Positions 880 through 60,719 of a DNA stretch of 64,000 nt are shown here, piece by piece. The notes beneath the pieces are model-generated. The model was not told the DNA's origin and made no database searches. It saw nothing but the letters and a program-made list of their open reading frames with translations. Source of the DNA: a virus; the IMG/VR virus record IMGVR_UViG_3300020172_006270, positions 1 through 64,000 of that record; one strand, written 5' to 3'. How positions within the stretch are numbered: position 1 is the first letter of the stretch; every line of letters starts with the position of its first letter. The translations under genes and the position numbers were made by a program.

Positions 880-891
880 AAGAGACGATAA

Positions 892-8696: not shown

Positions 8697-8697
8697 T

Positions 8698-9348: not shown

Positions 9349-9356
9349 CAATAAAA

Positions 9357-9391
9357 AAGGGAACCAATACTATCGAGTAATTGATTCCCTT
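9357..9391 (-). terminator. Hairpin with U-tract on the minus strand
   Basis: AAGGGAA (9357-9363) pairs with TTCCCTT (9385-9391), extended by AAT/ATT after a two-base mismatch. Read leftward, the stem runs into CTTTTTTATTG, a good intrinsic terminator; read rightward the tail is only TTATCC, though it lies nine bases after the stop of the 8698 gene and may act weakly for it. No minus-strand protein gene lies upstream, which suggests a minus-strand RNA. Confidence 0.55.
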
Positions 9392-9570: not shown

Positions 9571-9572
9571 AT
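9567..9572 (+). promoter_or_regulatory. TATAAT -10-like box before the 9608 gene
   Basis: A perfect TATAAT lies 36 bases before the ATG at 9608. The bases 17 upstream (GAGTCA) are a poor -35 match, so this would be a weak or activator-dependent host-type promoter. Confidence 0.35.
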
Positions 9573-9607
9573 GCAGACAGAGAAATTTTAGAACAGGGTC
9601 AAAATAT

Positions 9608-10621
9608 ATGCTCAAGTTGGTGAAAAAGAAGGTGAAGAAGCCGGTATCGCTGCGAGATCACCAGGAAAGACGAAATAAAATACTCATCAAAAGACGCAGC
9701 GGCGGCTACGGCGACATCCTCATGCAAAGAATGCTATTTGAGGACTTTTCAAAGGCTTTTCCAGGCGCAGAAATCACATTTGCCTGCCCTGCAATGTACG
9801 TCGAAATGGCCAAAAATCACCCGTTCGCCAAAGCGATTGATCTTGGCTCCGTAAATGAGGATGAATATGGAGCCATATACGACCTATCAACCGCCTGTCG
9901 AGTTCACGAATCTCGCTTTGGAGAGAGAAATCAAGATCATAGAAGCGATATTTGGGCGGCACATTGCGGCATAGTTTTGAACAACCATAATATGATGCTG
10001 AAGCCAGACCCAATTGTGTTGGAGCAATGCCGAGAAGCATTCAAGCGATACAACAAGGAAGGAAAGCCAGCAGTATTGCTTGCTTCGACTTCCACTCCCG
10101 ATATGATAGGCACAGCCAAGAGCCTGACCTACAATCAAATCAGCGATGTAGTCAAAGCACTAAGAGATCAAGGCTGCTATGTGTTTACTATCCACACCGA
10201 CAAGCAAGTTGTGTACGACAACTTGGGAGTAGACCAAATATTCAGCATCCATCAACAAGCCTGGATTTCTATGGTCGAACTAGCTGATGCCGTCATCTCA
10301 GTAGATACTGCGACATTTCATATCGCAGGTGGGCTTCAAAAACCCTTAATTGGGATATTCGCTTTCACTGACGGCAAACTGTACGGCAAATACTACGATT
10401 TTGTCCTGGTTCAAAAACACAGAGACAATGGCGATTGGGACTGTGGCCCATGCTTCAACATGACGACTTGTCCGAAGTCAAAAGAAATTCAGAAGCCATG
10501 CCTGACAGAGCTATCTTCCTCCGACATTCTTCGGGGGTTCGCTGAGGCCGTAGAGAAGTGGCCGTCCTTAAAAAATAGTCTAAAAAATAAGCGAACCGAT
10601 CTGCTTGGTCATACATCATGA
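9608..10621 (+). CDS. GT9-type glycosyltransferase
   Basis: The 337-residue protein starts with a basic stretch (KLVKKKVKK), then RRSGGYGDILMQRMLFEDF, the GDxL loop of GT9 enzymes, and near residue 235 has VDTATFHIAGGLQKPLIGIF, the family's donor-binding segment with Asp, Thr and His in place. Length matches heptosyltransferases. CGPC and a further Cys near residue 280 may bind a metal or form a disulphide. It stands alone after the structured gap 9349-9607. Its last 167 bases overlap, antisense, the GT9-like gene at 10455. Confidence 0.85.
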   Translation: MLKLVKKKVKKPVSLRDHQERRNKILIKRRSGGYGDILMQRMLFEDFSKAFPGAEITFACPAMYVEMAKNHPFAKAIDLGSVNEDEYGAIYDLSTACRVHESRFGERNQDHRSDIWAAHCGIVLNNHNMMLKPDPIVLEQCREAFKRYNKEGKPAVLLASTSTPDMIGTAKSLTYNQISDVVKALRDQGCYVFTIHTDKQVVYDNLGVDQIFSIHQQAWISMVELADAVISVDTATFHIAGGLQKPLIGIFAFTDGKLYGKYYDFVLVQKHRDNGDWDCGPCFNMTTCPKSKEIQKPCLTELSSSDILRGFAEAVEKWPSLKNSLKNKRTDLLGHTS

Positions 10622-11312
10622 AGACGTTTTTGCTCTTAAACAACGGCTTCAGATACAAATCATGATTGTTGGGAGAATACAGATTGTGAAACAATAAATG
10701 ACTCGGACCTATGCACAAAGACGGCACGTTATGCACCCATGCAGCACACTGCATGGAACTATGGCTACCAACGAAAAAAGCCGCCCTCTCAACCAGCTTG
10801 GTTGCCAAACGTGGACTACCTTTGATGTGCTTCACATTGGATGATTCATATCCAAAGTCTTCTTGCCCCAGAACCACCATATTGACGCCAGACGCATCGG
10901 CGATCCATTGCACCATATTAGCCGTATTGAATGCCGTAACGAGGTTACGAGGGCCGTAGGAGGCAAATGGATGGAAAACACCATAAGGCCCGACCACATT
11001 AACCAAGATGTCTTCTTCGTCTGAATCTAGCCACAAAGGAGGAACCACTTTGGGGTAATCAGAAAGATTGGCGATATAAGAAATATCGTCTTTAAGACGG
11101 TTTTGGGCAAACTTCTTTTCTTGATAGACATGCTGGTGTCTGAAGTACGGTGAATTCTTCACCAAATCAATACCAGCAGGACATTGAGCAGAAACTCTGA
11201 ACTCAATGTCCTGCACTGACATCATAATGTAAGTAAGCCGGTTGCCCGGCTCACCCAGGTACTTGAGAATATAATCCCCAAGACCTCCACCTAAAGTAAA
11301 AGATAATTTCAT
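10455..11312 (-). CDS. GT9-like glycosyltransferase with antisense C-terminal extension
   Basis: The 285-residue protein has TLGGGLGDYILKYLGEPG at the N-terminus, corresponding to the GT9 GDxL loop, and FFVGSHSSMQCAAWVHNVPS near residue 185 in place of the donor motif (SxxxxxAA rather than DTGxxHLA). It is diverged and may have lost or changed donor specificity. The final ~55 residues are read from the strand opposite the end of the 9608 gene, an unusually long convergent overlap. It overlaps the next leftward gene start by four bases. Confidence 0.68.
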   Translation of the reverse strand: MKLSFTLGGGLGDYILKYLGEPGNRLTYIMMSVQDIEFRVSAQCPAGIDLVKNSPYFRHQHVYQEKKFAQNRLKDDISYIANLSDYPKVVPPLWLDSDEEDILVNVVGPYGVFHPFASYGPRNLVTAFNTANMVQWIADASGVNMVVLGQEDFGYESSNVKHIKGSPRLATKLVERAAFFVGSHSSMQCAAWVHNVPSLCIGPSHLLFHNLYSPNNHDLYLKPLFKSKNVFMMYDQADRFAYFLDYFLRTATSLRPQRTPEECRRKIALSGMASEFLLTSDKSSC

Positions 11313-40844: not shown

Positions 40845-42323
40845 ATGCCAATAGTAATAACGAAACCAGTGCTTACAGCAACCTATTTAGTGGTTGATGA
40901 GAATGGCACTGTTATTTCGTCTCACCCTCAAAATATCGAGATCGAGTCAGTAGACGCCGATAGTTTTTTGCAAGCTCTAAGTGATTTGATGCTGGCAAAA
41001 GACGGCCTTGAACTCACCGCTAGTGAAGTTCATATGTTGATACGCACTGGCAATATGATTTCTCTCGGTAACGTCCAAGCTGCCACTCTCGGCGTTCAGA
41101 GCCAATATCAATTCCCCACAGCGGTTGGATCGACCGGGCAGGTTATTGGGTATCAAGGCACGAGCCAGTTGGCATGGGTTAACTCAGGTAGTGGCGCTCA
41201 AGGCTTTCAAGGAAACCAAGGCGCACAGGGCAATCAAGGCGCACAAGGAAATCAAGGCAATCAAGGAAACCAGGGGTTTGCAGGCTCGGTTGGTTCACAA
41301 GGTTTTCAGGGCAATCAAGGCAATCAGGGAAATCAAGGCACACAAGGCAACCAAGGGAACCAGGGATTCCAAGGTTCTGCCGGTACTGTCGGAAATCAAG
41401 GATTTCAAGGTAATCAAGGTAATCAGGGAAACCAAGGAACACTAGGAAACCAAGGCAACCAGGGATTACAAGGTTCTGCTGGTACGGTTGGTTCACAAGG
41501 ATTCCAGGGAAACCAAGGCAATCAGGGTAATCAAGGCACTCAAGGCAACCAAGGAAACCAAGGCAACCAAGGAAACCAAGGAACCGCTGGATCACAGGGT
41601 TTTCAAGGCAACCAAGGCGCACAAGGTAATCAGGGAAATCAGGGCAACCAAGGCACACAAGGTTTCCAAGGCAATCAGGGTAATCAAGGAACTGCTGGCG
41701 CACAAGGATTCCAGGGCAACCAAGGCAATCAGGGAAATCAGGGCAACCAAGGCACGCAAGGTTTCCAAGGCAATCAGGGCAACCAAGGAACTGCTGGCGC
41801 ACAAGGATTCCAGGGAGTTCAAGGCGCACAAGGAAATCAAGGATCACAAGGAAACCAGGGCATTTCTGGCTTAGGGTTTAGTGTTCCTTATACATTCAAC
41901 ACAAGCACAGTGATGTCGGCGGCTTCTGGAGAAGTTCGATTCAATAATGCTACGATTGCATCTATTACCAATATCGACATCTCAAGAACAGATCGCAATG
42001 GTGCTGGTCAGCAAGCTGTGTTGGATCGCATGTCATCTGGCACATTGTTTAGATTCTCTGCCGAAGCTAGTGCTACACAATACAACTTCTTCCAAGCCAA
42101 TAGCGTAACGAAGAATGCTCAAGATTATAACTTTGCTGTTGCATACTTGTCGAACAATGGATCGTTGTTCTCTAACTCAGCAAATATTGGTTTGGGAATT
42201 GCCATGATCGGCTACCAGGGCAATCAGGGCGCTCAAGGCTTCCAGGGCTACCAAGGCTTCCAGGGCGCTCAAGGCGCACAAGGACACCAGGGCAACCAAG
42301 GTAATCAAGGAGGAGGCATATAA
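40845..42323 (+). CDS. Collagen-like Gly-X-Gln fibre protein, copy 1
   Basis: 492 residues: an N-terminal domain (1-116, ending GQVIGYQGTSQLAW, a pattern of phage tail-fibre joints), a Gly-X-Gln stalk of about 230 residues with GNQ, GAQ, GTQ and GFQ triplets, a globular beta domain (about 348-455, starting PYTFNTSTVMSAA) and a second short Gly-X-Gln stalk to the end. The stalk has no proline; Gln holds the Y position in nearly every triplet, interrupted by GFAGSV and GSAGTV. Triple-helix stability would have to come from side-chain bonds. Probably a virion fibre or whisker. SD GGAG at usual distance. Confidence 0.9.
   Translation: MPIVITKPVLTATYLVVDENGTVISSHPQNIEIESVDADSFLQALSDLMLAKDGLELTASEVHMLIRTGNMISLGNVQAATLGVQSQYQFPTAVGSTGQVIGYQGTSQLAWVNSGSGAQGFQGNQGAQGNQGAQGNQGNQGNQGFAGSVGSQGFQGNQGNQGNQGTQGNQGNQGFQGSAGTVGNQGFQGNQGNQGNQGTLGNQGNQGLQGSAGTVGSQGFQGNQGNQGNQGTQGNQGNQGNQGNQGTAGSQGFQGNQGAQGNQGNQGNQGTQGFQGNQGNQGTAGAQGFQGNQGNQGNQGNQGTQGFQGNQGNQGTAGAQGFQGVQGAQGNQGSQGNQGISGLGFSVPYTFNTSTVMSAASGEVRFNNATIASITNIDISRTDRNGAGQQAVLDRMSSGTLFRFSAEASATQYNFFQANSVTKNAQDYNFAVAYLSNNGSLFSNSANIGLGIAMIGYQGNQGAQGFQGYQGFQGAQGAQGHQGNQGNQGGGI
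41190..41867 (+). repeat. 9-base-phased Gly-X-Gln repeat, gene 1
   Basis: DNA of low complexity made of ggc/gga/ggt-aac/aat-caa/cag codons for Gly-Asn-Gln and variants. Near-identical runs of 30-60 bases recur, so recombination could change stalk length in steps of three residues. It also creates false long open frames in the other readings. Confidence 0.9.
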
Positions 42324-42324
42324 A

Positions 42325-43929
42325 TTGATAATCACGATTAAACCACAAATATCGGTTAGACTTCTTAAAGCAGATGGTGATACCATCCTGTCTGCTCATG
42401 ATAAATCTATCGACGTTGATTTGGTTGCCGATGATTTCATCTCTGCATTCAATACTTTGTTTGCCGACAAAGACGATTATCAACTTGTTGAAAGACCTAT
42501 TGTTTCGACCAATTTCTTATTGGTAAACAATAATGATGTTGTTGTGGCAACTCATCCACAAAGAATTGAACTTGGATTGAACATCGAGAGCTTTTTGGAT
42601 GGCATGAATAAGCTGATCGAAATTCGAGATGGCTTAGGCGGCGTGAATGCGTTGCTCACAATGGGCAATATCATTTCACTCGGCAATGTGCAGGCTGTAT
42701 CTCTTGGCATTCAAAGCCAGTATACGTTTCCAACGACAGCCGGAGTGACTGGACAAGTCATTGGCTATCAAGGCACATCTCAATTGGAATGGATCAGTGG
42801 TGCTACTGGTTTGCAAGGCCCTCTTGGTCTTCAGGGTCGGCAAGGAAATCAGGGGAATCAAGGCAACCAAGGCACGCAGGGCTTCCAGGGCGTTGGATCG
42901 CAAGGCTCGCAAGGCTTTCAAGGCAACCAAGGTCGTCAAGGAAACCAGGGCAACCAAGGCAATCAAGGCAACCAAGGATTTCAAGGTGTTGGATCGCAAG
43001 GCTCTCAAGGCGCACAGGGAAACCAAGGTCGTCAAGGAAACCAGGGGAATCAAGGCAACCAAGGTACACAAGGTTTTCAAGGGTCTGGCTCGCAAGGTCT
43101 GCAAGGCGCTCAGGGAAACCAAGGCAACCAAGGTGTACAAGGCAACCAAGGAACGCAAGGCAACCAAGGCCGACAAGGAAATCAGGGAGCCGGTCTGCAA
43201 GGCGCACAGGGAAACCAAGGTCGTCAAGGCAACCAAGGAAATCAAGGCAATAGAGGCTTACAGGGTCCGCAGGGCCGACAAGGAAATCAGGGAGCCGGTC
43301 TGCAAGGTCGGCAAGGCAACCAAGGAACACAAGGAAGACAAGGCAACCAAGGCAATCAAGGCTTTCAAGGTCGCCAAGGCAACCAAGGTTTAGGACTTCA
43401 GGGGCGACAAGGCTTTCAAGGCAACCAGGGGAATCAAGGCTTTCAAGGCAATCAGGGAGTTATCGCTCCTGGGTTTGTGTTGCCGCTCGCATTCAACACA
43501 AGCACCGTAATGTCGGCGGCATCTGGAGAGTTGAGATTCAACAACGCTACTGTTGCATCTGTGACCAATATTGACGTGTCGAGAACCGATAGAAATGGTT
43601 CTGGTCAACAGGGCGTGCTTGATAAATTTGGTAATGGCACTTTGTTTTTCTTTACGTCTGAAGCGGTAGCTTCTCAGTATAGTTTTTTCACTACTACTGG
43701 CGTGACGAAGAATGCAAGTGACTATAACTTCAGCGTTAGCTATATTTCTAATGCTGGTACTTTGTTTGCTAACTCACAAAATGTGAGTATGGGTGTTGCT
43801 CTGCTTGGATTCCAAGGAATCAGCTTGCAGGGCGCTCAAGGCTTCCAAGGACGCCAAGGCTCTCAAGGCTTCCAAGGACACCAAGGCAACCAAGGCGATC
43901 CTGGTGGTCCGGTTATTGAAGACCCTTAA
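42325..43929 (+). CDS. Collagen-like Gly-X-Gln fibre protein, copy 2
   Basis: Tandem paralogue of 40845 with 534 residues. The N-terminal region is longer (about 160 residues, again with GNIISLGNVQAVSLGIQSQY and GQVIGYQGTSQLEW), the stalk has many GRQ triplets besides GNQ, and the same C-terminal beta domain and short tail follow. The start is TTG at 42325, 12-15 bases after AAGGAGGAGG. GRQ makes this stalk basic, so the two products could pair with each other in a mixed fibre. Confidence 0.88.
   Translation: MIITIKPQISVRLLKADGDTILSAHDKSIDVDLVADDFISAFNTLFADKDDYQLVERPIVSTNFLLVNNNDVVVATHPQRIELGLNIESFLDGMNKLIEIRDGLGGVNALLTMGNIISLGNVQAVSLGIQSQYTFPTTAGVTGQVIGYQGTSQLEWISGATGLQGPLGLQGRQGNQGNQGNQGTQGFQGVGSQGSQGFQGNQGRQGNQGNQGNQGNQGFQGVGSQGSQGAQGNQGRQGNQGNQGNQGTQGFQGSGSQGLQGAQGNQGNQGVQGNQGTQGNQGRQGNQGAGLQGAQGNQGRQGNQGNQGNRGLQGPQGRQGNQGAGLQGRQGNQGTQGRQGNQGNQGFQGRQGNQGLGLQGRQGFQGNQGNQGFQGNQGVIAPGFVLPLAFNTSTVMSAASGELRFNNATVASVTNIDVSRTDRNGSGQQGVLDKFGNGTLFFFTSEAVASQYSFFTTTGVTKNASDYNFSVSYISNAGTLFANSQNVSMGVALLGFQGISLQGAQGFQGRQGSQGFQGHQGNQGDPGGPVIEDP
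42810..43464 (+). repeat. Gly-X-Gln repeat, gene 2
   Basis: Same type of codon-level repeat as at 41190 with interspersed cga/cgt-caa (Arg-Gln) codons. Homologous tracts could drive unequal recombination between the two fibre genes. Confidence 0.88.
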
Positions 43930-47808: not shown

Positions 47809-48345
47809 ATGGCTGACGACTTCACAATTTTGAACCCAGGAAGTGGCGGCGACACAATGGACGAAACAGGTGTCGTCTATCCGTCTGCGCCTGTGCTTCG
47901 TAAACGTCCCAGAGTAGTCATCACGGGAGAGGGGATTGATGATATTGTTCCCGCTCTTGCCAGTTCGCCAACAGGTTCAGAGTTCGGCATGGTTACTCGG
48001 CCTGTTATGGGCTATTCAGGCGAGGCGATCACTGTTTTCAATCTAACAACTTTGGTTCCCACAAACACTGAAACAACAGTCACCACATACACCGTTCCTG
48101 CTGGTAAAACCTTCAATTTCCTTGGTTTTGTGGCATCAGGCAATGCCAATGCTCTCTTTAAGCTGTATGTGGCAAGTAGCCCTGTTTTGGCAGGCAGAAG
48201 CTCGGTGGCCAACCTCACAGTTCAAATGACTTATGCCATGTCTCCGTTCCAAGTTCTCGAAGGCGACACTATTGTACTGAGGGTCATCCATCAAGCAAAT
48301 ATCGGCTGTGATTTTGAGGGGACCATCCTTGGATTCAATCTATGA
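47809..48345 (+). CDS. Probable virion protein, 178 aa
   Basis: Starts MADDFTILNPGSGGD, a Gly/Ser-rich head typical of structural proteins, then a beta-sandwich-like domain (TETTVTTYTVPAGKTFNFLG, VLEGDTIVLRVIHQ) similar to small receptor-binding or fibre-type domains. ATGA overlap links it to the GT4 gene. The strong ribosome site (GGAGAGGT) argues for high expression. Confidence 0.7.
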   Translation: MADDFTILNPGSGGDTMDETGVVYPSAPVLRKRPRVVITGEGIDDIVPALASSPTGSEFGMVTRPVMGYSGEAITVFNLTTLVPTNTETTVTTYTVPAGKTFNFLGFVASGNANALFKLYVASSPVLAGRSSVANLTVQMTYAMSPFQVLEGDTIVLRVIHQANIGCDFEGTILGFNL

Positions 48346-49400
48346 TTTTTCTTGTTTTACCGTGTAACTGCAATAGTGGCTGGGGCGTCTGCTCGACCAA
48401 TCTCGCTAGGGAACTTTCGCAAAAAACCAAAATCAGATACGTCTCTTGTGAACTTAACAACCCAACTGCAACAAGAAATCCAATTGAATTGGCTTATTTC
48501 AAATCTTGCGAATTCACAAACTTAGATTACCTGAAGTCTCAAACACAACATCCTTTGATCCAAGCCATTCAGCACGACTTGTCAGATTATCTGGGTGACT
48601 TCAACGGCTCACGCAAGATTGCCATCACTTTTGCCGATAGAAAAATCCCTACCGCCCTCGCTCTCAGATCGAAGAAGTTCGACGTGATCGTAGCTGGCTC
48701 AGTGTGGTGTAAAGAACTACTGGAAGAGTATGGTGTAAAGTCCCAAGTTGTTCTTCAGGGTATTGATCCGCTTATATTCAATAAGTCTCGGTCCAAAAAA
48801 CAAATTTTCTTGGATGACTTCATGGTTTTCTCAGGCGGCAAGTTTGAACACCGAAAAGGTCAGGATATTACCCTGAAGGCATATAAAGTCCTCCAGGATC
48901 GTTATCCTGATGTCAAATTGGTTTGTGCCTGGACGAACCCATATACAGATGAATCAGGCGTGAAGGCCCTTCAAGAAAGCGGCGTGGATATGAATCGGGT
49001 CATCATGATTCCGAATATGCCCAACTTCATGATGGCTCAGATATATCAAAATACCGATGTGGGCATGTTTCCCAGCCGATGTGAAGCCGGAACCAATTTG
49101 GTCATGATGGAATATATGGCGTGCGGCAAACCGGCAATTGCCACTATCGGTACAGGCCAGCGAGATTTGATTTCAGATAAAACTGGCATCGCTTTAGAGA
49201 ACAGCGGAATATGCGATCTCGTGGAAAACGGACAAGTTGTCAGCAAATGGGAAGAACCGAATGTTGACTCGGCGATAGACAAACTTGATTGGGCATATAA
49301 CCACCGGGCAAAAATAAAGCCCCTTGGGTTACAAGGGGCCAAATTACTTTCTGAATATACCTGGGAGCGAATGGCCCAGCAACTCTTGAGCTTTATGTGA
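48342..49400 (+). CDS. Family 4 glycosyltransferase coupled to a virion gene
   Basis: 352 residues: N-terminal VLPCNCNSGWGVCSTNLA (a GGxG-like substrate loop), donor-domain start FMVFSGGKFEHRKGQDI (the classic GRxxxxKG position) and CEAGTNLVMMEYMACGKP, the E-x7-E motif. Clearly GT4. Translationally coupled to the 47809 virion protein, so it may glycosylate that product. A terminator for leftward transcription lies inside its 3' end (49311-49340). Confidence 0.9.
   Translation: MIFLVLPCNCNSGWGVCSTNLARELSQKTKIRYVSCELNNPTATRNPIELAYFKSCEFTNLDYLKSQTQHPLIQAIQHDLSDYLGDFNGSRKIAITFADRKIPTALALRSKKFDVIVAGSVWCKELLEEYGVKSQVVLQGIDPLIFNKSRSKKQIFLDDFMVFSGGKFEHRKGQDITLKAYKVLQDRYPDVKLVCAWTNPYTDESGVKALQESGVDMNRVIMIPNMPNFMMAQIYQNTDVGMFPSRCEAGTNLVMMEYMACGKPAIATIGTGQRDLISDKTGIALENSGICDLVENGQVVSKWEEPNVDSAIDKLDWAYNHRAKIKPLGLQGAKLLSEYTWERMAQQLLSFM
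49311..49340 (-). terminator. Leftward intrinsic terminator inside the GT4 gene
   Basis: GCCCCTTG (49319-49326) pairs exactly with CAAGGGGC (49332-49339) over a five-base loop; read leftward the stem is followed by TTTATTTTTG. It lies about 55 bases past the stop of the leftward gene at 49393, so it should end the 51155-49393 operon although embedded in an opposing coding sequence. Confidence 0.75.
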
Positions 49401-49722
49401 ACTTAACGCAGCCGTTTACGATTGTGAATTCATAAGGCGACGTATATTCTTCTGGCTGCAAACAAGTAGGGTCTATCGTCAAAAGAATCTGAAGAATCAT
49501 TGCACCAAAATTGAATGCTTCTGCGGACTGACCAGTTCGTACTGAGTCCATGACATCACAAATTGCTTGCAACTCTTCTTTGCTTCTTGTAATGCCATTT
49601 TTTAACCAAAACTTATCTCGTTGGTCTTTATGGAATTGAAGCAAATATTTGAACATTTCATTTCCTGTGTTCAAAATTCTGTTTGCTTCTTTTTCACTTT
49701 CTAAATCATGTATCTCAAACAT
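49393..49722 (-). CDS. Hypothetical protein, 109 aa
   Basis: Acidic and helical (MFEIHDLESEKEANRILN; FKYLLQFHKDQRDKFW), ending in a short beta stretch. Lies 11 bases after the 49734 structural gene and overlaps the GT4 stop by eight bases. Function unknown; may be a chaperone for the fibre products upstream in the operon. Confidence 0.7.
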   Translation of the reverse strand: MFEIHDLESEKEANRILNTGNEMFKYLLQFHKDQRDKFWLKNGITRSKEELQAICDVMDSVRTGQSAEAFNFGAMILQILLTIDPTCLQPEEYTSPYEFTIVNGCVKFT

Positions 49723-49733
49723 ATTGTCTCCTG

Positions 49734-51155
49734 TTACTCGAAGTATCCATCGACAGTAACCATGCCAGCAATAACCTGCGAGGCCGTCGCCGTTCCTACT
49801 GGTATTCTGAGGATGATATGGAAGAATCGACCAGATGGAACAACCAGTGGGGTCGTGAAGATTTTAGATATTCTCTGAGCGGAAGCACCAATAGCAGCAG
49901 CCACCGGGAAACTTTGCACTCCGAGAGGTATGCGGCATACCGTGGCCGTCGCTAAAGAAACGGCAGTCGAACCCACGCCCGCACCCCAAACCAACAAGTG
50001 TGGAGTAGTGGCAACGGCTGCACCCGTGTTGTATGCTTCGATGTCGATGCCCGTAACGACTAAGTTGCTGTTCGCTGGAACGGTAAAACCAAACAATGCG
50101 AAGTCAGTAGCGGCACCGGCAACAGCAGCGAACTGCCATAGTCCACCCAGGGTCGTATAACCAGCAGCCGTGTTGGACAAGGTTGCCGAAGTAGCAGCAG
50201 CAGAGTTGGCATAGTTAGTCAACTGCGCACCCGTGAATGGGTGAATGGGATTGGACCTAAAGTTGGCAGCATTGACTTGCGCCCAACTTTTGTTCTGCAC
50301 GTTGTCCAGAGCCAAAGCATAAATGTCCGTCAGGATCATCTGAGGGGCGGTCGTAGGTGCGACACCAGAGTTGTAAAGACGTGCCAAGACCTGAATTTGA
50401 GTAGCGCTCAACAATCTTGCAGCAGTCAAAGGCAACTTGATTGATTGCTCAGAAATAATCTGTCCGGTAGAAGTGTTTTGGCAAACAAATACTGCTTCGT
50501 CGTCATCCATGAACACGTCGAATGTGTAGTAGTTTGTCGTGTTGATGGAGCTTCTAATGTCTGAACCTGTAATATCAACGCTGTTGATAGTCACAACAGG
50601 CTGCAATACACCGGAAGATGTCATTTGCCAGTAAGCACCCGTGGTGTTCGCACCGTTAAACGTGGCTGCATCGCCAAATCCAATCTCCATCACCGAGTTG
50701 TTGTAATGGTTAAGTCTGGCTCTGGCCTTAACCTGGAGTGCCGACCTTTGGTTCTTCATGAAAGTCATTGCCGACTTAATCATGTAACCAGTCGTAACCG
50801 TCGTGATTGTACCGGAGTTGAACAAAAGGCCGGTTATCGTGGCCTGCGTTGCAGCCATCGTCGTGTTGGTAATAAGCCAACGCTGAGGGCTGGTCACAGT
50901 CGATTCAAAAGCATCGTGCAACAACAATGTATGACCAGCACTACCCACACTACCGAGTCTGTCCATTCGGATTGGGTGAACGGCTTCATCGTTTAGCCCA
51001 AGGACCATAATGCCTCGTGGCGTAGCTGGTTGGTCGCCGTGGGTGTAGGCCATATTCTGGCCGATACCGTCGTACAGACTCATACGACCAGCTTTGCTTG
51101 TTGGATCGACTGTCAGCATATCGCTGCTGGCACCACTCTTAATTGCTACGCTCAT
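49734..51155 (-). CDS. Probable virion/fibre protein, 473 aa
   Basis: Ala/Thr/Gly-rich, with repeated beta strands and few charged residues; starts MSVAIKSGASSDMLTVDPTSKAGRM, as many tail or baseplate decoration proteins do. A concanavalin-like region seems to run from LLHDAFESTVTSPQRW through about residue 290, and a second beta domain with ATDFALFGFTVPANSNL follows. No signal peptide. Part of a leftward series of structural genes. Confidence 0.75.
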   Translation of the reverse strand: MSVAIKSGASSDMLTVDPTSKAGRMSLYDGIGQNMAYTHGDQPATPRGIMVLGLNDEAVHPIRMDRLGSVGSAGHTLLLHDAFESTVTSPQRWLITNTTMAATQATITGLLFNSGTITTVTTGYMIKSAMTFMKNQRSALQVKARARLNHYNNSVMEIGFGDAATFNGANTTGAYWQMTSSGVLQPVVTINSVDITGSDIRSSINTTNYYTFDVFMDDDEAVFVCQNTSTGQIISEQSIKLPLTAARLLSATQIQVLARLYNSGVAPTTAPQMILTDIYALALDNVQNKSWAQVNAANFRSNPIHPFTGAQLTNYANSAAATSATLSNTAAGYTTLGGLWQFAAVAGAATDFALFGFTVPANSNLVVTGIDIEAYNTGAAVATTPHLLVWGAGVGSTAVSLATATVCRIPLGVQSFPVAAAIGASAQRISKIFTTPLVVPSGRFFHIILRIPVGTATASQVIAGMVTVDGYFE

Positions 51156-51156
51156 A

Positions 51157-51477
51157 TTAAACTCCGATTATGTTGAAATTGTATTTTCCGAATGTAGTGT
51201 CATGGCATCCTGCTCTCAATGTAAAACCCACCCCATCTACAATAAGATCAGGCACGCCGAAGACGCCTTCCAACACATAATCCTCTGGATCATGATCTGC
51301 TGTTGCGGCTCCTGAAGGAGACACAATAAGTTTAGTTGTGGAAGTTACCCACGTCGCAGAGACAATTACTTCAGCGGCCCCAGCTTCGGTTGCGCCAGGA
51401 GCGCCAAAATCAACTTCTACGGATACGTCGTAGACAGTTGTGCCGGTGCCGGTGCTTGCTGGATAATATACTGGCAT
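51157..51477 (-). CDS. Probable small virion protein, 106 aa
   Basis: Beta-rich (DVSVEVDFGAPGATEAGAAEVIV, split here for brevity), acidic, opening MPVYYPASTGTGTTVYDVSV. One base before the next leftward gene. Composition and neighbours indicate a structural or decoration protein; no domain recognised. Confidence 0.68.
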   Translation of the reverse strand: MPVYYPASTGTGTTVYDVSVEVDFGAPGATEAGAAEVIVSATWVTSTTKLIVSPSGAATADHDPEDYVLEGVFGVPDLIVDGVGFTLRAGCHDTTFGKYNFNIIGV

Positions 51478-51480
51478 GGA

Positions 51481-52125
51481 TTAAATCTCCGTCACTCGAA
51501 TAATGTTTGTTCCGGTTGAGGAGATAGCTTCTATTGCTCCTGTATATGCAGGAAGGTGCATTTCGTAAAAACCATTCGTAAATAATTCTATTGTGTGACT
51601 TGTCGCACTCGCAGCAGTTCCCCACTTGATGTAAACTGAATTGGCTCCACTATTGAAAAATGTTGCCAAATGTCTAGCAGAATTTGCTGCCAATAATTGA
51701 ATACTTACGCCGTTTGTGACAGTAACATTGCTCAATGTTGAGGTTGCCGACCCCAGATGGTCAACCGTATAAGTGCCACTTGGAACGGCAGTAACCGTTC
51801 CAGCTACCGTATAAGTTCCTGTTGGAGTTGCCGTGACGGTTCCAGACACAGCTTGTGTGCCAGATGGCACAATGGTCATAGATGTAGATGTGACCGTGTA
51901 TGTGCCACTTGGAACCGCTGTGGTGGTTCCTGCGACCGTATAAGTGCCGCTTGGAACTGCCGTGGTCGTGCCTACGACCGTATGGGTGCCGGACGGCAAA
52001 GTTCGGACGATTAGCCCGCTTTCGGTGCCTGATGGTGCAACGGTTGATATATCGCAAACCAAAAGGTCGTTTGCGTCAACAAGTTGCACAGGCTGTGAGT
52101 TTTGTATTCTTGTTAGGTCTGGCAT
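51481..52125 (-). CDS. Repeat-containing virion protein, 214 aa
   Basis: After MPDLTRIQNSQPVQLVDAND come about six copies of a 14-residue unit built on PSGTYTVAGTTTAV (positions ~45-130), then a C-terminal domain (LLAANSARHLATFFNSG) like a small beta-sandwich. The repeat matches those in the next gene, so both likely form beta-solenoid or extended stalks. Follows the 52157 terminator and a TATATAAG box before its ATG. Confidence 0.78.
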   Translation of the reverse strand: MPDLTRIQNSQPVQLVDANDLLVCDISTVAPSGTESGLIVRTLPSGTHTVVGTTTAVPSGTYTVAGTTTAVPSGTYTVTSTSMTIVPSGTQAVSGTVTATPTGTYTVAGTVTAVPSGTYTVDHLGSATSTLSNVTVTNGVSIQLLAANSARHLATFFNSGANSVYIKWGTAASATSHTIELFTNGFYEMHLPAYTGAIEAISSTGTNIIRVTEI

Positions 52126-52156
52126 ATCAGACTTATATAGAGTTTGCTTTGTTCAA

Positions 52157-52200
52157 AAACAAAAAAAAGGCCCCGCAAACCTTTCGATCTGCGGGGCCTA
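52157..52200 (-). terminator. Strong leftward intrinsic terminator
   Basis: AGGCCCCGCA pairs with TGCGGGGCCT over a 13-base loop, and leftward transcription then meets eight Ts. It lies right after the stop of the 52216 gene and separates it from the 51481 gene, which therefore needs its own promoter. Confidence 0.9.
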
Positions 52201-52215
52201 AGTTGAAACTAGAAA

Positions 52216-53901
52216 TTAGACTCGTTCTTCACCCATTAAGGTGCAATAAACATCTTGAGCAGCACCAGCATTGTTCTGAATTTTGATATTCACAACAGTT
52301 GAAGCTGTAATGGCAGGTGGCTGGGTAAAATTGATTGCTAAAAATGGCATAGAAGCTGAATAGAAACCAACTGCGGCCACAGTCGGGCCAGCACCATAAT
52401 CTACTTGAACTCGACAAGGAGCGCCAGAAGAAGAAGCCATAATCCCCTTGAGATACAGGGTTCTACCGGCAGTGACCGTATAGGACAATGTGGCTGTCGA
52501 AGCATTTGCCAAAGAAGCCTGAGTTTGGTAGTTGACAACGATGCCAGTCTGAGCCAAATGGCTGACGTTTAGCGGAGTCGCATTGTTGATACCCTGGACG
52601 CTCAAAACGCCAGCGTTAGCGGTTCCAGCCGTTCCTGCACCAACAATTTCAGCTTTCAAGTTGGCAGCAGTAGACTGAACAACAGTCATGGATGTTGCGG
52701 TTACTGTGTATGTTCCACTTGGAACAGCCGTCACGGTTCCAGATACAGGCTGTGTGCCAGATGGAACATTTGTTACCGTACCAGCAACCGTATAGGTGCC
52801 AGTTGGAGTAGCATTCACAGTACCAGCAACCGTATAGGTGCCAGTTGGAGTAGCGGTGGTTGTGCCAGAGACGCTGATTGGCGTCATCGAGGCAATACCC
52901 TGAATGGTCAGCACTCCAGCGTCAGCAGTTCCCGCCGTTCCCGCACCAACAACTTGAGCTTTCAAGTTGGCCGCTGTCGGGTTCACGACAGTCATGGATG
53001 TTGCGGTTACTGTATAGGTTCCACTTGGAACAGCCGTTACGGTTCCAGACACAGGTTGTGTGCCGGATGACACGCTCGTTACCGTACCAGCAACCGTATA
53101 GGTGCCAGTTGGAGTAGCATTCACAGTACCGGCGACAGTGTAAGTGCCAGTTGGTGTAGCAGTGGTTGTGCCAGAGACGCTAATTGGCGTCATCGAGGCG
53201 ATACCCTGAATAGTCAGCACTCCAGCGTCAGCCGTTCCAGCAGTACCAGCACCAACAACCTGAGCTTTCAAGTTGGCAGCAGTTGGGTTCACAACGGTCA
53301 TAGACGTTGCTGTTACAGTGTAAGTGCCAGTCGGCGTTGCCGTCACGGTTCCAGACACAGGCTGTGTGCCGGATGGAACATTTGTTACCGTACCAGCAAC
53401 CGTATAGGTTCCGGTCGGAGTTGAGTTAACAGTACCAGCAACCGTATAGGTGCCTGTTGGAGTAGCGGTGGTCGTGCCAGAGACGCTAATTGGCGTCATC
53501 GAGGCAATACCTTGAATAGTCACAACGCCTGCGTCAGCAGTACCAGCCGTTCCTGCACCAACAACTTGAGCTTTCAAGTTGGCCGCTGTTGGGTTCACAA
53601 CAGTCATGGATGCGGCGGTTACTGTGTATGTGCCAGTTGGAGTCGATGTTACTGTTCCAGAAACAGCCTGTGTGCCAGATGGTACATTCGTCACCGTACC
53701 AGCAACCGTATAGGTTCCGGTCGGAGTTGAGTTAACAGTACCAGCAACCGTATAGGTGCCTGTTGGCGAAGATGTAATCGTACCGGAAACAGGCTGCGTT
53801 ACAGCAGAACCGTCGATTCTCAAAGCCGAACCAGCGGTAATACCAGCGGTGTTGGTATTGTCCGTTAGTTTAACCGGCATCTGTGTTTGAATATCAGCCA
53901 T
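52216..53901 (-). CDS. Large repeat virion/fibre protein, 561 aa
   Basis: Built from four ~102-residue units, each with the 14-residue subrepeat PTGTYTVAGTVN(A/S)T several times and then VTATSMTVVNPTAANLKAQV and a Gly/Ala stretch. The C-terminal ~110 residues (YQTQASLANASTATLSYTV ...) form a distinct beta domain that may bind the target. N-terminus MADIQTQMPVKLTDNTN resembles the 51481 product. Long repeats of this kind suit a stalk whose length changes by recombination. Ends just before a strong terminator. Confidence 0.8.
   Translation of the reverse strand: MADIQTQMPVKLTDNTNTAGITAGSALRIDGSAVTQPVSGTITSSPTGTYTVAGTVNSTPTGTYTVAGTVTNVPSGTQAVSGTVTSTPTGTYTVTAASMTVVNPTAANLKAQVVGAGTAGTADAGVVTIQGIASMTPISVSGTTTATPTGTYTVAGTVNSTPTGTYTVAGTVTNVPSGTQPVSGTVTATPTGTYTVTATSMTVVNPTAANLKAQVVGAGTAGTADAGVLTIQGIASMTPISVSGTTTATPTGTYTVAGTVNATPTGTYTVAGTVTSVSSGTQPVSGTVTAVPSGTYTVTATSMTVVNPTAANLKAQVVGAGTAGTADAGVLTIQGIASMTPISVSGTTTATPTGTYTVAGTVNATPTGTYTVAGTVTNVPSGTQPVSGTVTAVPSGTYTVTATSMTVVQSTAANLKAEIVGAGTAGTANAGVLSVQGINNATPLNVSHLAQTGIVVNYQTQASLANASTATLSYTVTAGRTLYLKGIMASSSGAPCRVQVDYGAGPTVAAVGFYSASMPFLAINFTQPPAITASTVVNIKIQNNAGAAQDVYCTLMGEERV
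52562..53780 (-). repeat. Four tandem ~306-bp repeats
   Basis: The sequence GTCAT(G/A)GATG-type landmark recurs at 52685, 52991, 53297 and 53603, exactly 306 bases (102 codons) apart, and 42-base subrepeats lie within each unit. Copies differ at scattered positions, so the array is diverged enough to be old but close enough to recombine. Confidence 0.9.
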
Positions 53902-53922
53902 TTAAGTGTCTCCTTACGAGTA

Positions 53923-54168
53923 TTATGCCTTTGGTGCTAAAGCCGCTTCTTGCTTCTTTTCTTCGGCTTCCAATTGAATCTTGATGTTTTTGTCCTGCTC
54001 GACAATCACCTTTTTCTGTGCTTCTATATCTAGGTTGCATCGCTCAATTTCTTCCTGAAGTTCAAGGATGCGAATATGCCGTGCCTGGATATTGGCCTGT
54101 GCTACAATCTTCTGATGTTCAAGCCTCATAATTGTGAGGTTATTGTTGGTGCTAAATAGATCAGCCAT
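53923..54168 (-). CDS. Coiled-coil protein, 81 aa
   Basis: Starts MADLFSTNNNLTIM, then a continuous heptad-rich helix (RLEHQKIVAQANIQARHIRI, LELQEEIERCNLDI...) to an Ala-rich end. AAAGGAG precedes the ATG, and ATAAATAA lies 25 bases upstream. A trimeric or dimeric coiled coil would suit a fibre connector. Confidence 0.75.
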   Translation of the reverse strand: MADLFSTNNNLTIMRLEHQKIVAQANIQARHIRILELQEEIERCNLDIEAQKKVIVEQDKNIKIQLEAEEKKQEAALAPKA

Positions 54169-54227
54169 AGTGTTTTTGCTCCTTTCACACTTATTTATGT
54201 TCGGATGAACCGTTTTGGAGCTTATAG

Positions 54228-55592
54228 ATGAACTTAGACAAAATATTGATTGGTATGCACGAAGAATCCTGCCGTTTGCACGCAGAGGGAAGAGATTCAG
54301 AGGCTTTATTTACCTGCGAACAACTGGCAGTACAATCTCTCAATACATTGGGGCTTGCTTATTGCGGTTATTTGCCCAATTACGACAAGGCAATAAATTG
54401 CTTTTTCGATGCTCTTAAAATCGAGCCAAGTAACTGGTTGTTGTGGTCAAACATTTGTCACGTTCGCAGTCTCCAAGAGCGTCATAAAGAAGCCCTGTCT
54501 GCCGCCATTCAGTCAATCAAGTTTTCAGACGGAATCGCCTTTGATCCTTACTACAACGCTGGCGTGACTTTAACTGCTCTCGGCAGATGCAAAGAAGCCG
54601 TCGAGATGTACCGAGCCGCCTTGCAGATCAGCCCGGAACACAGCCAAATCAATTACAATCTGGGACTGTGCTTGTTGAGAATTGGCGAATGGAAAGACGG
54701 TTGGGAGAAATACGAATACAGGTTCAAGACCAGTGAATTGACGGGTCGATTCAAAGATAGATTCATTCAAGATCAGTGGGACGGCAGGAAGTTCAAAAAG
54801 AAAAGCCTTGCCGTCTATAGCGAGCAAGGCTTGGGCGACTTCATATTTTTCGCTAGATTTTTACCAATGGTAAAAGCCCTCGGTGGTAAGGTGATATGTG
54901 AAGTACAAGAACCATTGAAGGATGTTATTGGAAAGAATCTCAAAATTGATGAATTGGTTTCCCGTCCCAATAATACTGAGTGGCCCGCACCGCCAGATTC
55001 AGATTACGCCGTTTCGATTTCTAGTCTTCCAAGAATTTTGAAAATCGACTCTTTGGACAAGGTGCCGAATCGTCCGTATATTGCCGCCCCCAATAAACCA
55101 AGGCCACGGGGTTTCTCGAACAAGAAGTTCAACATTGGCTTGTGCTGGGCGGGTAACTCAGATCATCAACGAGATTACACCCGATCAATGTTTTTGAATC
55201 ACTTCAAGCCGCTCGCTGACAATCCAAAAGTTCAACTTTTTGGTTTGGTGAAGGGCGTCCGAAATCAAAGGAAGTGGCCGGAAGGAGTGGTTGATTTGAA
55301 CTATGGCATTGATGATTTTCCAATGGTCAATTTAGAAAATCAAATCAATGGATTTGGCGACTTGGCTCATTACATCAATCATCTGGACTTAGTGCTGACT
55401 GTAGACACAGGATTAGCACACTTGGCAGGAGCGATGGGCAAGCCTGTATGGGTTCTGTTGGGCAAAGAAACAGATTGGCGATGGGGAGACGATGCAACAA
55501 CCTCAGCTTGGTATCCCAGCATGAGGTTGTTTCGTCGCCAAGATACTTGGGAAAATCTTGTTTCCGAAGTGATTACTCAACTGCCGTCATAG
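54228..55592 (+). CDS. TPR-glycosyltransferase (GT9/GT41-like)
   Basis: 454 residues: TPR helices over about 1-190 (YDKAINCFFDALKIEPSNW, CKEAVEMYRAALQISPEHSQ), then a GT-B domain with KSLAVYSEQGLGDFIFFARF (the GDxxxF loop) and VDTGLAHLAGAMGKPVWVLL, the donor motif. TPR plus this domain is the layout of protein O-glycosyltransferases such as those acting on flagellins and adhesins; the TPR part is expected to bind the protein acceptor. Neighbouring fibre genes make virion proteins the natural target (inference). Confidence 0.88.
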   Translation: MNLDKILIGMHEESCRLHAEGRDSEALFTCEQLAVQSLNTLGLAYCGYLPNYDKAINCFFDALKIEPSNWLLWSNICHVRSLQERHKEALSAAIQSIKFSDGIAFDPYYNAGVTLTALGRCKEAVEMYRAALQISPEHSQINYNLGLCLLRIGEWKDGWEKYEYRFKTSELTGRFKDRFIQDQWDGRKFKKKSLAVYSEQGLGDFIFFARFLPMVKALGGKVICEVQEPLKDVIGKNLKIDELVSRPNNTEWPAPPDSDYAVSISSLPRILKIDSLDKVPNRPYIAAPNKPRPRGFSNKKFNIGLCWAGNSDHQRDYTRSMFLNHFKPLADNPKVQLFGLVKGVRNQRKWPEGVVDLNYGIDDFPMVNLENQINGFGDLAHYINHLDLVLTVDTGLAHLAGAMGKPVWVLLGKETDWRWGDDATTSAWYPSMRLFRRQDTWENLVSEVITQLPS

Positions 55593-56379
55593 CGAATTTG
55601 GTTGGATCAATCGGGCAATCCACATCCTTGTGATGGCAGAATAGATTGCCTGATACAATCTGCGTATATTGTCCTTCGTCTACTTTGCTCAAGAAGACAT
55701 TTTCAGGATCGCCGAAGAAGTTGTTCGGGTTATACAATGGACCCAAATGCTTATAGATCACATAGCCCATTGATTTAATCGTTTCAATCAAAGCGGCAGA
55801 TTTTTCTTCTCTGTCATCTTCGATATAGAGAATTGGCTTAAATTTTTCAATAGTTTCCTTGGCTCCTTCTAAAGCCAATTTTTCCATTCCTTCAACATCC
55901 ATTTTAATGAAGTCCAATCGAAGGAACTGTTGTTCGTCGATAGTAATCAACGGAACTGGATAGCTTGGAGCGCCAGAATAGTCTTCACACAGCGAAAGGC
56001 CACCCCAATTAACGGTTCTCTCTTGATCGAGTTCTGGGACGGCGATGAATCCTGGAGATGAGCCAAGGGCTTTTTGGAATGGGTAGACGTTTAGCAAATT
56101 GTTGATAGAGACGTTGCCTGCCAAGGTATTGAAGTTGATCCGTTCTGGCTCGTATGCGAAAACGACGCCCGCAGGCCCGACCAGACGAGAAAATGCTACC
56201 GTGTGACAGCCTATGTTCGCCCCCACATCCAAAACAACACTCCCCGGCTTGATTGCATCCCGGAAAACCTGGACTTCTGACTCCGAGAATTCCCCGTATT
56301 TTTCGAGAGATCGTCCGACCCAAATATCCTTGTTGTTATAGATCATCAGTCCATAACGGCACTTCTTCAATAGATTCAT
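55573..56379 (-). CDS. FkbM-family methyltransferase
   Basis: ATG 56379 follows GGAG; the longer frame to 56583 runs opposite the 56450 gene. The 268-residue protein has SVVLDVGANIGCHTVAFSRL, the SAM-binding motif of FkbM enzymes, FAYEPERINFNTL with the acidic residue contacting SAM, and DFIKMDVEGMEKLALEGA, a strong FkbM signature. These methylate sugars or small molecules in glycan pathways. Its stop overlaps the convergent TPR-glycosyltransferase by 20 bases, so it fits the glycan theme. Confidence 0.9.
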   Translation of the reverse strand: MNLLKKCRYGLMIYNNKDIWVGRSLEKYGEFSESEVQVFRDAIKPGSVVLDVGANIGCHTVAFSRLVGPAGVVFAYEPERINFNTLAGNVSINNLLNVYPFQKALGSSPGFIAVPELDQERTVNWGGLSLCEDYSGAPSYPVPLITIDEQQFLRLDFIKMDVEGMEKLALEGAKETIEKFKPILYIEDDREEKSAALIETIKSMGYVIYKHLGPLYNPNNFFGDPENVFLSKVDEGQYTQIVSGNLFCHHKDVDCPIDPTKFAMTAVE

Positions 56380-56449: not shown

Positions 56450-57037
56450 ATGCCTTTAGTACAGTGGATCATGCAGAATCTTTCGACTCCCAATGCCCAA
56501 GGCGGGGCAGTGGGTGGCGGTACTGCGCTCGTACAGCAAACCTCTTTTGTAATTGCCACAGGTGGCGCAAACGCAAGTGGCACATCCTTCTATGAAAAAA
56601 TATCCAGCATCATAGCCACAGGTGGTGCTGTTGCTGGTGGCGAAGCATATGTCAATGAGCAAGCAGCCAACATCAAAAAGGTTCGCCATCTACCCGGAGA
56701 CACGGTTTACGACAAGTGCAATAAGAGTTGGGTTGTCATTAGTTTTGAGTTTGCATCTTCTGGCGAACAGAAACTTCGTTTGTCCAACAATGTAAAACAA
56801 AAAGTTTTGTTTGAAAGTGAAATATCTAATCAACCAATTTATGTAATGGGCGAGGGGTTTAGAGATTGTTCTCTGGCTAATTTGCCAATATTTGTGGGCC
56901 GGAGGATAGTCAAATTTGGAAGTTTAGACCCCATTGAAGGACAGGCAGCAATAGCCAACTCCAAGATTATTGCACTAAAGGCACAGTCCTTGGCTAATTT
57001 GCCAGTTTACTCAGGAAGAAGGAAGGTTAAAGTATGA
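56450..57037 (+). CDS. Glycine-rich virion-type protein, 195 aa
   Basis: Follows GGAGGGAAT, a very strong site. The N-terminal part has repeated ATGGA-x-A-x-G units (SFVIATGGANASGTSFYEK, SSIIATGGAVAGGEAYVNE), and the C-terminal part repeats SLANLPIFVGRRIVK / SLANLPVYSGRRKVKV. Two short repeats suggest a self-assembling small structural protein. ATGA-linked to the next gene. Confidence 0.7.
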   Translation: MPLVQWIMQNLSTPNAQGGAVGGGTALVQQTSFVIATGGANASGTSFYEKISSIIATGGAVAGGEAYVNEQAANIKKVRHLPGDTVYDKCNKSWVVISFEFASSGEQKLRLSNNVKQKVLFESEISNQPIYVMGEGFRDCSLANLPIFVGRRIVKFGSLDPIEGQAAIANSKIIALKAQSLANLPVYSGRRKVKV

Positions 57038-58954: not shown

Positions 58955-59328
58955 CCAATGTTACCTCCATACAACTCGAACCAGCGTTCCTTAATCATCG
59001 CATCGGCGATTGGACTGCGTGCATTGAGGTCTTCTTCTTTCTCAATCTTCACGCCATCTCGTCGCCCGCCCCAGCCCGTAGCTGATTTCATCTTGGCCGT
59101 CAGTGGTTCTTTGCTGTAGGCCGACAAAGGTGGGCAGATTTCTTCTTTGGCACCGTTCTCGCTACGGCCATTTTCGTAAATCACACCATCCTTGATGAAG
59201 CGATGGTGTTTATGTTTACATTTAGGGCAGACGATTTCCACGCCGATGGTGAGAGCCATATTCAGTCTTACTCGAAAATAGCCCGAACACTCACCGCAGT
59301 AAAACTCCTGCCATACTTTGTTATCCAT
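58951..59328 (-). CDS. Zinc-ribbon-type hypothetical protein, 125 aa
   Basis: FYCGECSGYF and IVCPKCKHKHHRF form two CxxC knuckles about 20 residues apart, a zinc-ribbon layout, followed by a charged tail. Starts in TAATG overlap with the LysRS stop. Could bind nucleic acid; not assigned. Confidence 0.72.
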   Translation of the reverse strand: MDNKVWQEFYCGECSGYFRVRLNMALTIGVEIVCPKCKHKHHRFIKDGVIYENGRSENGAKEEICPPLSAYSKEPLTAKMKSATGWGGRRDGVKIEKEEDLNARSPIADAMIKERWFELYGGNIG

Positions 59329-60719
59329 TAGTCCCTCGGCCTCAATAGGGGGAATGCAATTACGTCTCGAATGGTAGCCTGATTGGTCAGGATAGCCACA
59401 AGACGGTCGATGCCAAGTCCAAGACCGCCAGCCGGAGGCATACCTGTCTTGATGGCATCTACGAAGTCTTGATCCATAACGTGACCGTCCTTGGCTTGCT
59501 TTTGGAAATTCTCCAATTGAATATCCGGGTCGTTCAACTCGGTATATCCTGGCGCAATTTCCATGCCGCCAATGACCAGTTCAAATGTCTCTGCGTATCC
59601 TTGGTTTCCATCATACTTGCCGAATGGTCGTGCCAATGGCACTGCACTAGCAGGCATGTGCATAACGAAGGTTGGCTGAATCAGCGTTGATTCAATCGTG
59701 TCTTCGTATACCTGGAAGCGATATTCGGGCGAGCCGTCTCCGACCACCAGTTCTTGCAAGGATACTCGCTTGAATGGTGGAGTGAAGTTTAGCAGATGTT
59801 CCTTGTAGGGAATATCCATAAGGCGACCGTGAATCTTTTCCACTTGGTTGACGATAAGAGCCTCAACCAGCTTCATCATCGTCTCGTAGTTGCCAAAGGC
59901 TTGGTAAGCCTCCATAGACGTGAATTCAGGGTTGTGGCGAGGGCTGATGCCTTCATTGCGGAAGTTCTTGCCGATCTCGAAGACCTTGTTCATGCCGCCA
60001 ATGAGCAACTTCTTCAGATATAGCTCAGGGGCAATACGAAGGAACATGCCAATGTCGAGGGCATTGTGGTGCGTCATGAATGGCTTGGCGATAGCACCAC
60101 CAGCCGACGCTTGCAGAATCGGAGTTTCGACTTCATCAAAGCCACGATCATACATCATCGTGCGAATATCACGAATGATATTGGCTCGCTGCCGAAACAC
60201 CTTCATGGTGTCCGGGTTGGTCCACATATCAACGTGGCGAAGACGATACTTGAGTTCCGGGTCATTTAGCCCGTGAACCTTGTCTGGTGGTGGCGTGAGA
60301 GCCTTAGATACAATACGAAACGTATCGGCCCAAATAGTGATCTCGCCACGCTGAGTAGCGGCCAGACGACCCCGGACAGCGACAATATCGCCCAGGTCCA
60401 ATGCTTCGTATTGTGGCCAATCCCATCGTTGAGCTACAGGACCAGCAAACTTAGACTGGTCGATGGCAACTTGGATTTGCCCATCCTCACTTGTGATGGT
60501 GAGGAAGGACAACTTTCCATGACCCCGCTTGAGCGCACACCGACCAACAATAACAAACTCCGGGCCGTCTTCCTTGGTGAAAGAGGCATCAAAGCTGTCA
60601 CGAACAATATCAATGTTCGTTGGTGCTGGATCAATAATGGACATATCGAAAGGCCGGTGTCCCTTGGCCTTTAGATCGTCTAACTTGGCTCGGCGTTCAT
60701 CAACAGGGTTGTTGCTCAT
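59328..60719 (-). CDS. lysS: Lysyl-tRNA synthetase, class II
   Basis: 463 residues with an N-terminal OB-fold anticodon-binding domain (GRCALKRGHGKLSFLTI, GDIVAVRGRLAATQRGE) and the class II core: motif 2 as FEIGKNFRNEGISPRHNPEF and motif 3 as GGLGLGIDRLVAIL. The MEAYQAFGNYETMM region and APELYLKKLLIGGM are typical LysRS. About 40 residues shorter than E. coli LysS, mainly at the N-terminus. A phage-borne LysRS may keep translation going if the host's is limited or tRNA is modified. Confidence 0.95.
   Translation of the reverse strand: MSNNPVDERRAKLDDLKAKGHRPFDMSIIDPAPTNIDIVRDSFDASFTKEDGPEFVIVGRCALKRGHGKLSFLTITSEDGQIQVAIDQSKFAGPVAQRWDWPQYEALDLGDIVAVRGRLAATQRGEITIWADTFRIVSKALTPPPDKVHGLNDPELKYRLRHVDMWTNPDTMKVFRQRANIIRDIRTMMYDRGFDEVETPILQASAGGAIAKPFMTHHNALDIGMFLRIAPELYLKKLLIGGMNKVFEIGKNFRNEGISPRHNPEFTSMEAYQAFGNYETMMKLVEALIVNQVEKIHGRLMDIPYKEHLLNFTPPFKRVSLQELVVGDGSPEYRFQVYEDTIESTLIQPTFVMHMPASAVPLARPFGKYDGNQGYAETFELVIGGMEIAPGYTELNDPDIQLENFQKQAKDGHVMDQDFVDAIKTGMPPAGGLGLGIDRLVAILTNQATIRDVIAFPLLRPRD

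Follow-up and report, generated by a model that had tools for sequence, protein, structure and literature searches.

A conserved glycosyltransferase and methyltransferase block beside fiber genes suggests glycosylation of virion appendage proteins in a contractile-tailed phage

We analyzed the first 64 kb of IMGVR_UViG_3300020172_006270 (hereafter, the window), a viral contig of 223,268 bp from a contractile-tailed phage. Between positions 47809 and 56379, three enzyme genes stand beside genes for probable virion appendage proteins; they encode a GT4 glycosyltransferase, a protein joining tetratricopeptide repeats (TPR) to a glycosyltransferase domain (TPR-GT), and an FkbM-family methyltransferase. 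The best explanation of this arrangement, and in our judgment a probable one, is that the phage encodes glycosylation of its own virion appendage proteins. An initial annotation had proposed protein glycosylation in the virion here, and this proposal received strong comparative support that falls short of proof: a gene pair and a larger gene block are kept among relatives, related genes are independently linked to capsid or fiber genes in unrelated phages, the TPR-GT combines TPR with a GT-B fold near TibC and the O-GlcNAc transferases (OGTs), the threonine richness of the candidate acceptor is conserved, and the ratios of nonsynonymous to synonymous substitution (dN/dS) are low. The locus contains the following features.

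47809-48345, plus strand: gene for a 178-aa probable virion appendage protein, ending in ...CTATGA
48342-49400, plus strand: GT4 glycosyltransferase gene, whose start shares ATGA with the stop of 47809-48345
49734-51155, minus strand: probable fiber protein of 473 aa, so called from its position, combined Ser and Thr content (S+T 20%, rank 7 of 266) and fast evolution; no family match
51481-52125, minus strand: Thr/Ser-rich PSGTYTV repeat protein, probable fiber (S+T 30.8%, rank 1 of 266), with repeats shared with 52216
52216-53901, minus strand: Thr-rich TPTGTYTVAGTV repeat protein, probable fiber and candidate acceptor (S+T 30.5%, Thr 22.5%, rank 2 of 266)
53923-54168, minus strand: gene for an 81-aa coiled-coil protein, at the head of the fiber operon and beside the TPR-GT gene in all relatives with sequence there
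54228-55592, plus strand: TPR-GT of 454 aa, the sole plus-strand gene between the fiber operon and the FkbM gene
55573-56379, minus strand: FkbM-family methyltransferase, convergent with the TPR-GT gene

Glycosyltransferase genes are thus carried by the phage itself and are linked to genes of predicted virion proteins. The initial annotation described a single run of coupled and interleaved genes, which the locus does not contain, as its strands alternate. The GT4 gene does start inside the stop of the 178-aa gene, as had been noted, with an overlap of 4 bp (ATGA). Since 25 of the 191 same-strand neighboring pairs of this genome have a 4-bp overlap, this feature is ordinary on its own, and we rejected it as special evidence. 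The minus-strand fiber operon runs, from its first gene, through the coiled-coil gene (53923-54168), 52216, 51481, 51157 and 49734. The reported adjacency of the TPR-GT gene at 54228 to the coiled-coil gene was correct in its coordinates, but the two genes are divergent, on opposite strands. Similarly, the FkbM gene at 55573 follows the TPR-GT gene in position, but it lies on the minus strand and the two overlap tail to tail by 20 bp (55573-55592); being convergent, they share no operon. The FkbM start is most likely the ATG at 56379, because that N-terminus is kept in relatives, and a longer open reading frame (ORF) beginning with GTG is unsupported. Promoter-like sites showed no excess (11 observed against 14.8 in shuffles).

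The family assignments of all three enzymes are secure by profile matching. The GT4 protein matched PF00534 (Glycos_transf_1) with 59 bits (5.5e-16; cut-off 26.4), and its homologues keep the motif GTNLVMMEYMACGK. The TPR-GT matched TPR_1 (42.6 bits) and Glyco_transf_9 (PF01075; 28.9 bits, cut-off 22), and the FkbM protein matched both PF05050 (63.9 bits, cut-off 22.7) and TIGR01444 (86.7 bits, cut-off 37.7). With dN/dS values of 0.037 for GT4, 0.064 for the TPR-GT and 0.057 for FkbM, sequence comparison places all three under strong purifying selection. In the AlphaFold model of the TPR-GT (mean predicted local distance difference test, pLDDT, 87.5), the TPR domain spans about residues 1-170 and the GT-B domain about residues 186-454, and the residues invariant among eight divergent members fall in EQGxGD and DTxxAHLxGAM motifs. 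Structure comparison showed that the N-terminal half resembles the TPRs of OGT and SPY. The nearest structures to the C-terminal half were the GT9 protein 3tov (Z 17.4), the protein heptosyltransferase TibC (Z 16.6) and the E. coli lipopolysaccharide (LPS) heptosyltransferases, 1psw (Z 16.5) and WaaC (about 15.9). The initial statement that TPR-GT proteins modify proteins directly is therefore too general, as the glycosyltransferase domain is closest to GT9 heptosyltransferases, LPS enzymes among them.

These folds also bear on a different explanation, in which the targets of the enzymes during infection are glycans of the host surface (LPS/O-chain or capsule), whose alteration would block superinfection or the sticking of progeny to debris, and the enzyme genes lie near fibers as part of a hypervariable host-recognition region. 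The closeness of 1psw and WaaC and the many further glycosyltransferases in the genome agree with such a role, as does the interpretation that the authors of a study of pelagimyophages gave to glycosyltransferases in fiber regions (PMC7029224). However, LPS enzymes do not usually have a TPR half, and homologues are not limited to host-recognition regions: two unrelated phages have one directly behind the major capsid gene. No membrane segment was seen in the enzymes scanned (maximum KD19 at most 1.51), although core heptosyltransferases are also soluble. We consider this explanation rather unlikely.

It is far less probable that one or more of the glycosyltransferases act on phage DNA bases, as a hypermodification against restriction. 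Hypermodification of DNA by virus-encoded glycosyltransferases has precedents (Pyle 2024, as cited in PMC12619734), and a GT4-conflict Pfam model matched weakly, below its cut-off. Against this, no enzyme of the thymidylate synthase family, to which known hydroxymethylases belong and which T4-type DNA glucosylation would need, was found in the contig, with the controls detected, and neither the TPR domain nor the linkage to fiber and capsid genes would be explained. A search of the contig for Tet/JBP oxygenases gave no match, its positive controls being unmatched as well.

The linkage to virion genes recurs in unrelated phages. In podovirus ctDrO704, a TPR-GT homologue closely follows the major capsid gene, with a methyltransferase nearby; the latter is named FkbM in its record, but our scan gave a generic Methyltransf_23 match and no match to the window FkbM, and it was counted as a methyltransferase only. 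In the contig L016, a distant GT4 homologue is found downstream of the major head protein gene, within a series of GT9, methyltransferase, GT4 and GT9 genes. Two cyanophages, S-SRM01 and BUCT-ZZ01, and one marine virus also have TPR-GT homologues, placed among tail-fiber genes. One ORF of Synechococcus phage BUCT-ZZ01 (L153:6851-8563) apparently fuses GT9-like and methyltransferase-like parts (PHROG 1.8e-8; Pfam below cut-off), and it sits between a BNR-repeat protein gene and a VrlC-like gene. GT4 homologues in Streptomyces phages were flanked by lysis/tRNA and nucleotide-metabolism genes and were rejected as support for fiber linkage. Other enzyme genes accompany some of these homologues (L048:4924-8475; L154:9667-11225; L152:11949-12731): a sulfotransferase near the fiber genes in S-SRM01, a 2OG-Fe(II) oxygenase gene after the TPR-GT gene in the marine virus, and, near fiber genes in both a 225-kb relative and the marine virus, TPR-GT, sulfotransferase and GT25-family genes together.

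Among related contigs, the 178-aa and GT4 pair was found with the same ATGA overlap in five others, L011 (99%) and L012-L015 (54-59%). The second unit, consisting of FkbM, TPR-GT, coiled-coil and Thr-rich fiber genes, keeps its order and orientation in six divergent contigs (L045/L057, which is the 225-kb contig, L055, L056, L059, L060 and L061), across which TPR-GT identity falls from 68% to 32%. FkbM identity was 69-75% in six divergent contigs and 46% in L061, and coiled-coil identity was 45-78% in relatives, the near-identical contig apart (L017/L054 represent a near-identical population, and L058 ends at its contig edge). In L061, the deepest relative, the flanks differ, and a homologue of the 178-aa gene lies 12 bp upstream of the FkbM gene on the same strand, indicating that different branches have different enzyme genes in the slot after the 178-aa gene, namely GT4 or FkbM. 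Several relatives (L045:9605-10498, L056:8802-9683, L058 and L059:8792-9685) have a caspase-like gene (Peptidase_C14, 26.2 bits, cut-off 21.4), encoding about 297 aa, as an insert that separates the FkbM and TPR-GT genes, and the window has no such insert.

Such variation could also be expected if the clustering reflected general phage mosaicism and gene packing, with mobile appendage and glycan genes sharing hypervariable places and having no functional pairing. Consistent with this, 4-bp overlaps are common, the GT4 gene is present or absent depending on the relative, and the inserts between FkbM and TPR-GT vary, caspase-like and sulfotransferase-like genes among them. However, the block persists down to 32% identity and within the changed neighborhood of L061, the enzymes are under strong purifying selection, and the linkage of a glycosyltransferase plus a methyltransferase to capsid or fiber genes has arisen repeatedly and independently. 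Mosaicism without functional pairing thus appears quite unlikely to us.

The candidate acceptors stand out by composition. The two proteins encoded opposite the TPR-GT gene, 52216 and 51481, are the top two in S+T among the 266 proteins (31%; median 10.6%), and homologues of 52216 keep threonine at 21-28%. The neighboring appendage and fiber genes are assigned to the virion by prediction, and clear matches to tail-fiber families came only from the collagen-like fiber genes at 40845-43929, two paralogous tandem genes that are 64% identical to each other.

40845-42323, plus strand: collagen-like tail-fiber gene (PHROG tail fiber, 2.9e-58)
42325-43929, plus strand: collagen-like tail-fiber gene, paralogue of the preceding gene

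The versions in relatives are far longer (up to about 1,700 aa) and are located downstream of the 178-aa gene instead. The 178-aa protein consists of a conserved N-terminal segment (about residues 1-64) and a C-terminal beta-sandwich. In L030/L031, the N-terminal 64 aa are joined to a different C-terminus and a collagen-like fiber follows, and in LR756511 the C-terminal domain alone (45%) stands behind another N-terminus. The C-terminus was modeled mostly with pLDDT 74-89, and its BFVD matches include tail fiber and collagen-head proteins. This module swapping, together with a beta-sandwich that has viral fiber matches, suggests a virion appendage protein. Against the PDB, the model gave mixed beta-sandwiches and no match at E<=1e-3; a specific PDB identity was therefore rejected, and only the fold class is claimed.

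Several known systems resemble this arrangement. In mycobacteriophages Che8, Corndog and Myrna, capsid and tail-tube proteins are described as carrying sugar added by glycosyltransferases of the phages themselves (Freeman 2023, as cited in PMC12619734 and PMC12363180), which is the kind of activity we infer here. No mycobacteriophage match at E<=1e-5 was obtained in tblastn searches of the phage collection with GT4 and TPR-GT, so that the Che8 gp110 / Corndog gp38 type of enzyme is analogous at most; in addition, the likely targets here are appendage fibers, a TPR-GT is involved, and FkbM belongs to the conserved block. FlmG of Caulobacter is a flagellin O-glycosyltransferase composed of TPR and GT-B (PMC7591256). 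It is soluble, with an N-terminal TPR substrate-binding half and a C-terminal GT-B half, and acts in the cytoplasm on a surface appendage protein. By Pfam match and structural model, the phage TPR-GT resembles it in its TPR plus GT-B architecture. The TPR-GT family is also widespread in bacteria, where a flagellin-like gene found by motif lies within 4 kb in 6 of 79 cellular loci; a rough estimate that assumes each genome to have one or two flagellin loci gives an expectation of fewer than one such case, and the association fits the FlmG precedent. FlmG differs in that it uses pseudaminic acid made via NeuB and other enzymes, whereas this contig lacks NeuB and the host could supply the donor.

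Other likenesses are partial. The autotransporter heptosyltransferase TibC and GT9 enzymes share the GT-B fold of the catalytic half, but the match is limited to that half, with 10-16% identity over aligned residues. GT41 O-GlcNAc transferases (human OGT, XCC0866, T. terrenum OGT and SPINDLY) likewise join TPR to GT-B, but at the sequence level only the TPRs are similar, the phage glycosyltransferase half being nearer GT9. Pelagimyophage and cyanophage host-recognition clusters also interleave several glycosyltransferases with tail-fiber genes (PMC7029224); those were read as LPS modification, whereas here a fixed TPR-GT and FkbM block is kept across a lineage. By analogy, the system would work like mycobacteriophage virion glycosylation and FlmG. 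A search of the available literature found no description of a phage TPR-GT/FkbM fiber block.

If the phage does glycosylate its appendage proteins, the reaction would take place in the host cytoplasm, before assembly. The TPR half may hold the newly made fiber, most likely the Thr-rich 52216 and/or 51481, while the GT-B half would put a sugar on its threonine or serine residues and FkbM would O-methylate that sugar as a cap. GT4 might add or extend a glycan on the adjacent, co-expressed beta-sandwich protein 47809, and the glycan product would shield or retune the fiber. A more specific version is tentative: the TPR-GT would be a dedicated viral counterpart of FlmG acting on a Thr-rich repeat stalk, with FkbM capping, and the exchange of enzymes (GT4, FkbM or none) beside a constant anchor gene would give a switchable adhesin glycan coat.

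Several points weigh against virion-protein glycosylation. Thr-rich beta fibers are common without sugar, and GT9-like domains also build LPS. The system is known from genes and models, from which the glycan, the acceptor site and virion membership are predicted. Most neighboring genes have no family match, and the fiber cluster lies outside the main structural region, the tail sheath having been located by family search at about 117-120 kb of the contig. GT4 is lacking in many relatives with a 178-aa gene (L019-L027 and L029) and is thus optional, and its occurrence does not follow the similarity of the 178-aa protein. One group of contigs has the 178-aa gene at about 68% and no GT4. The conservation of the block is partly general synteny, and glycosyltransferases of pelagimyophage fiber regions were taken by their authors to modify the host O-chain (PMC7029224).

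The glycan cassette at the start of the contig, which the initial annotation had regarded as the source of sugar donors, has the following composition.

163-11312, no strand assigned: glycan cassette with methyltransferase, PseF-like cytidylyltransferase, polysaccharide-deacetylase-like, GT2, GT4, GT9 and unassigned genes

Its cytidylyltransferase matched the PseF model best, at 55.8 bits against a cut-off of 205.7, and no NeuB (PF03102) was found anywhere in the contig, with positive controls detected. Because NeuB is absent and most cassette genes are transferases, methyltransferases or deacetylase-like, a role in donor synthesis is not supported; from its gene content, the cassette looks like further glycan assembly or modification, and the host is the more likely source of sugar donors. 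The contig starts in a tandem repeat, ACAGAACCGGCTACT (window 1-110), which encodes TEPAT repeats ahead of the methyltransferase. GT9-like genes also occur near the opposite terminus of the contig (219-223 kb), so a single glycan cassette may have been split in the assembly.

A second TPR-GT paralogue lies outside the window (contig 142599-144305), with a homologue in the matching neighborhood of the 225-kb relative and a sugar epimerase-like gene nearby (146484-147395). The gene at 141038-141457, third in S+T, was tried as its acceptor and dropped; it encodes a short Ser/Thr/Lys/Ala-rich, histone-like protein that is kept in the 225-kb relative. Further genes include a subtilisin-like protease by sequence (contig 153091-154047), a nicotinamide phosphoribosyltransferase (contig 130181-131602; PHROG 2e-161), a probable phage lysyl-tRNA synthetase (window 59328-60719) and the neighbor of the FkbM gene listed here.

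56450-57037, plus strand: conserved protein without family match, divergent from FkbM; L045, L055, L056 and L058-L060 have a homologue in the corresponding position

Many phage glycosyltransferases have no assigned target, and most are attributed to DNA or host LPS. The conserved block described here names an enzyme pair, TPR-GT and FkbM, and a specific candidate acceptor, the Thr-rich fiber, which makes the sugar-coating of fibers by phages outside mycobacteria directly testable. If virion glycosylation is confirmed, fiber glycans would tune host range or provide shielding at a further level, one that host prediction from sequence leaves out of account.

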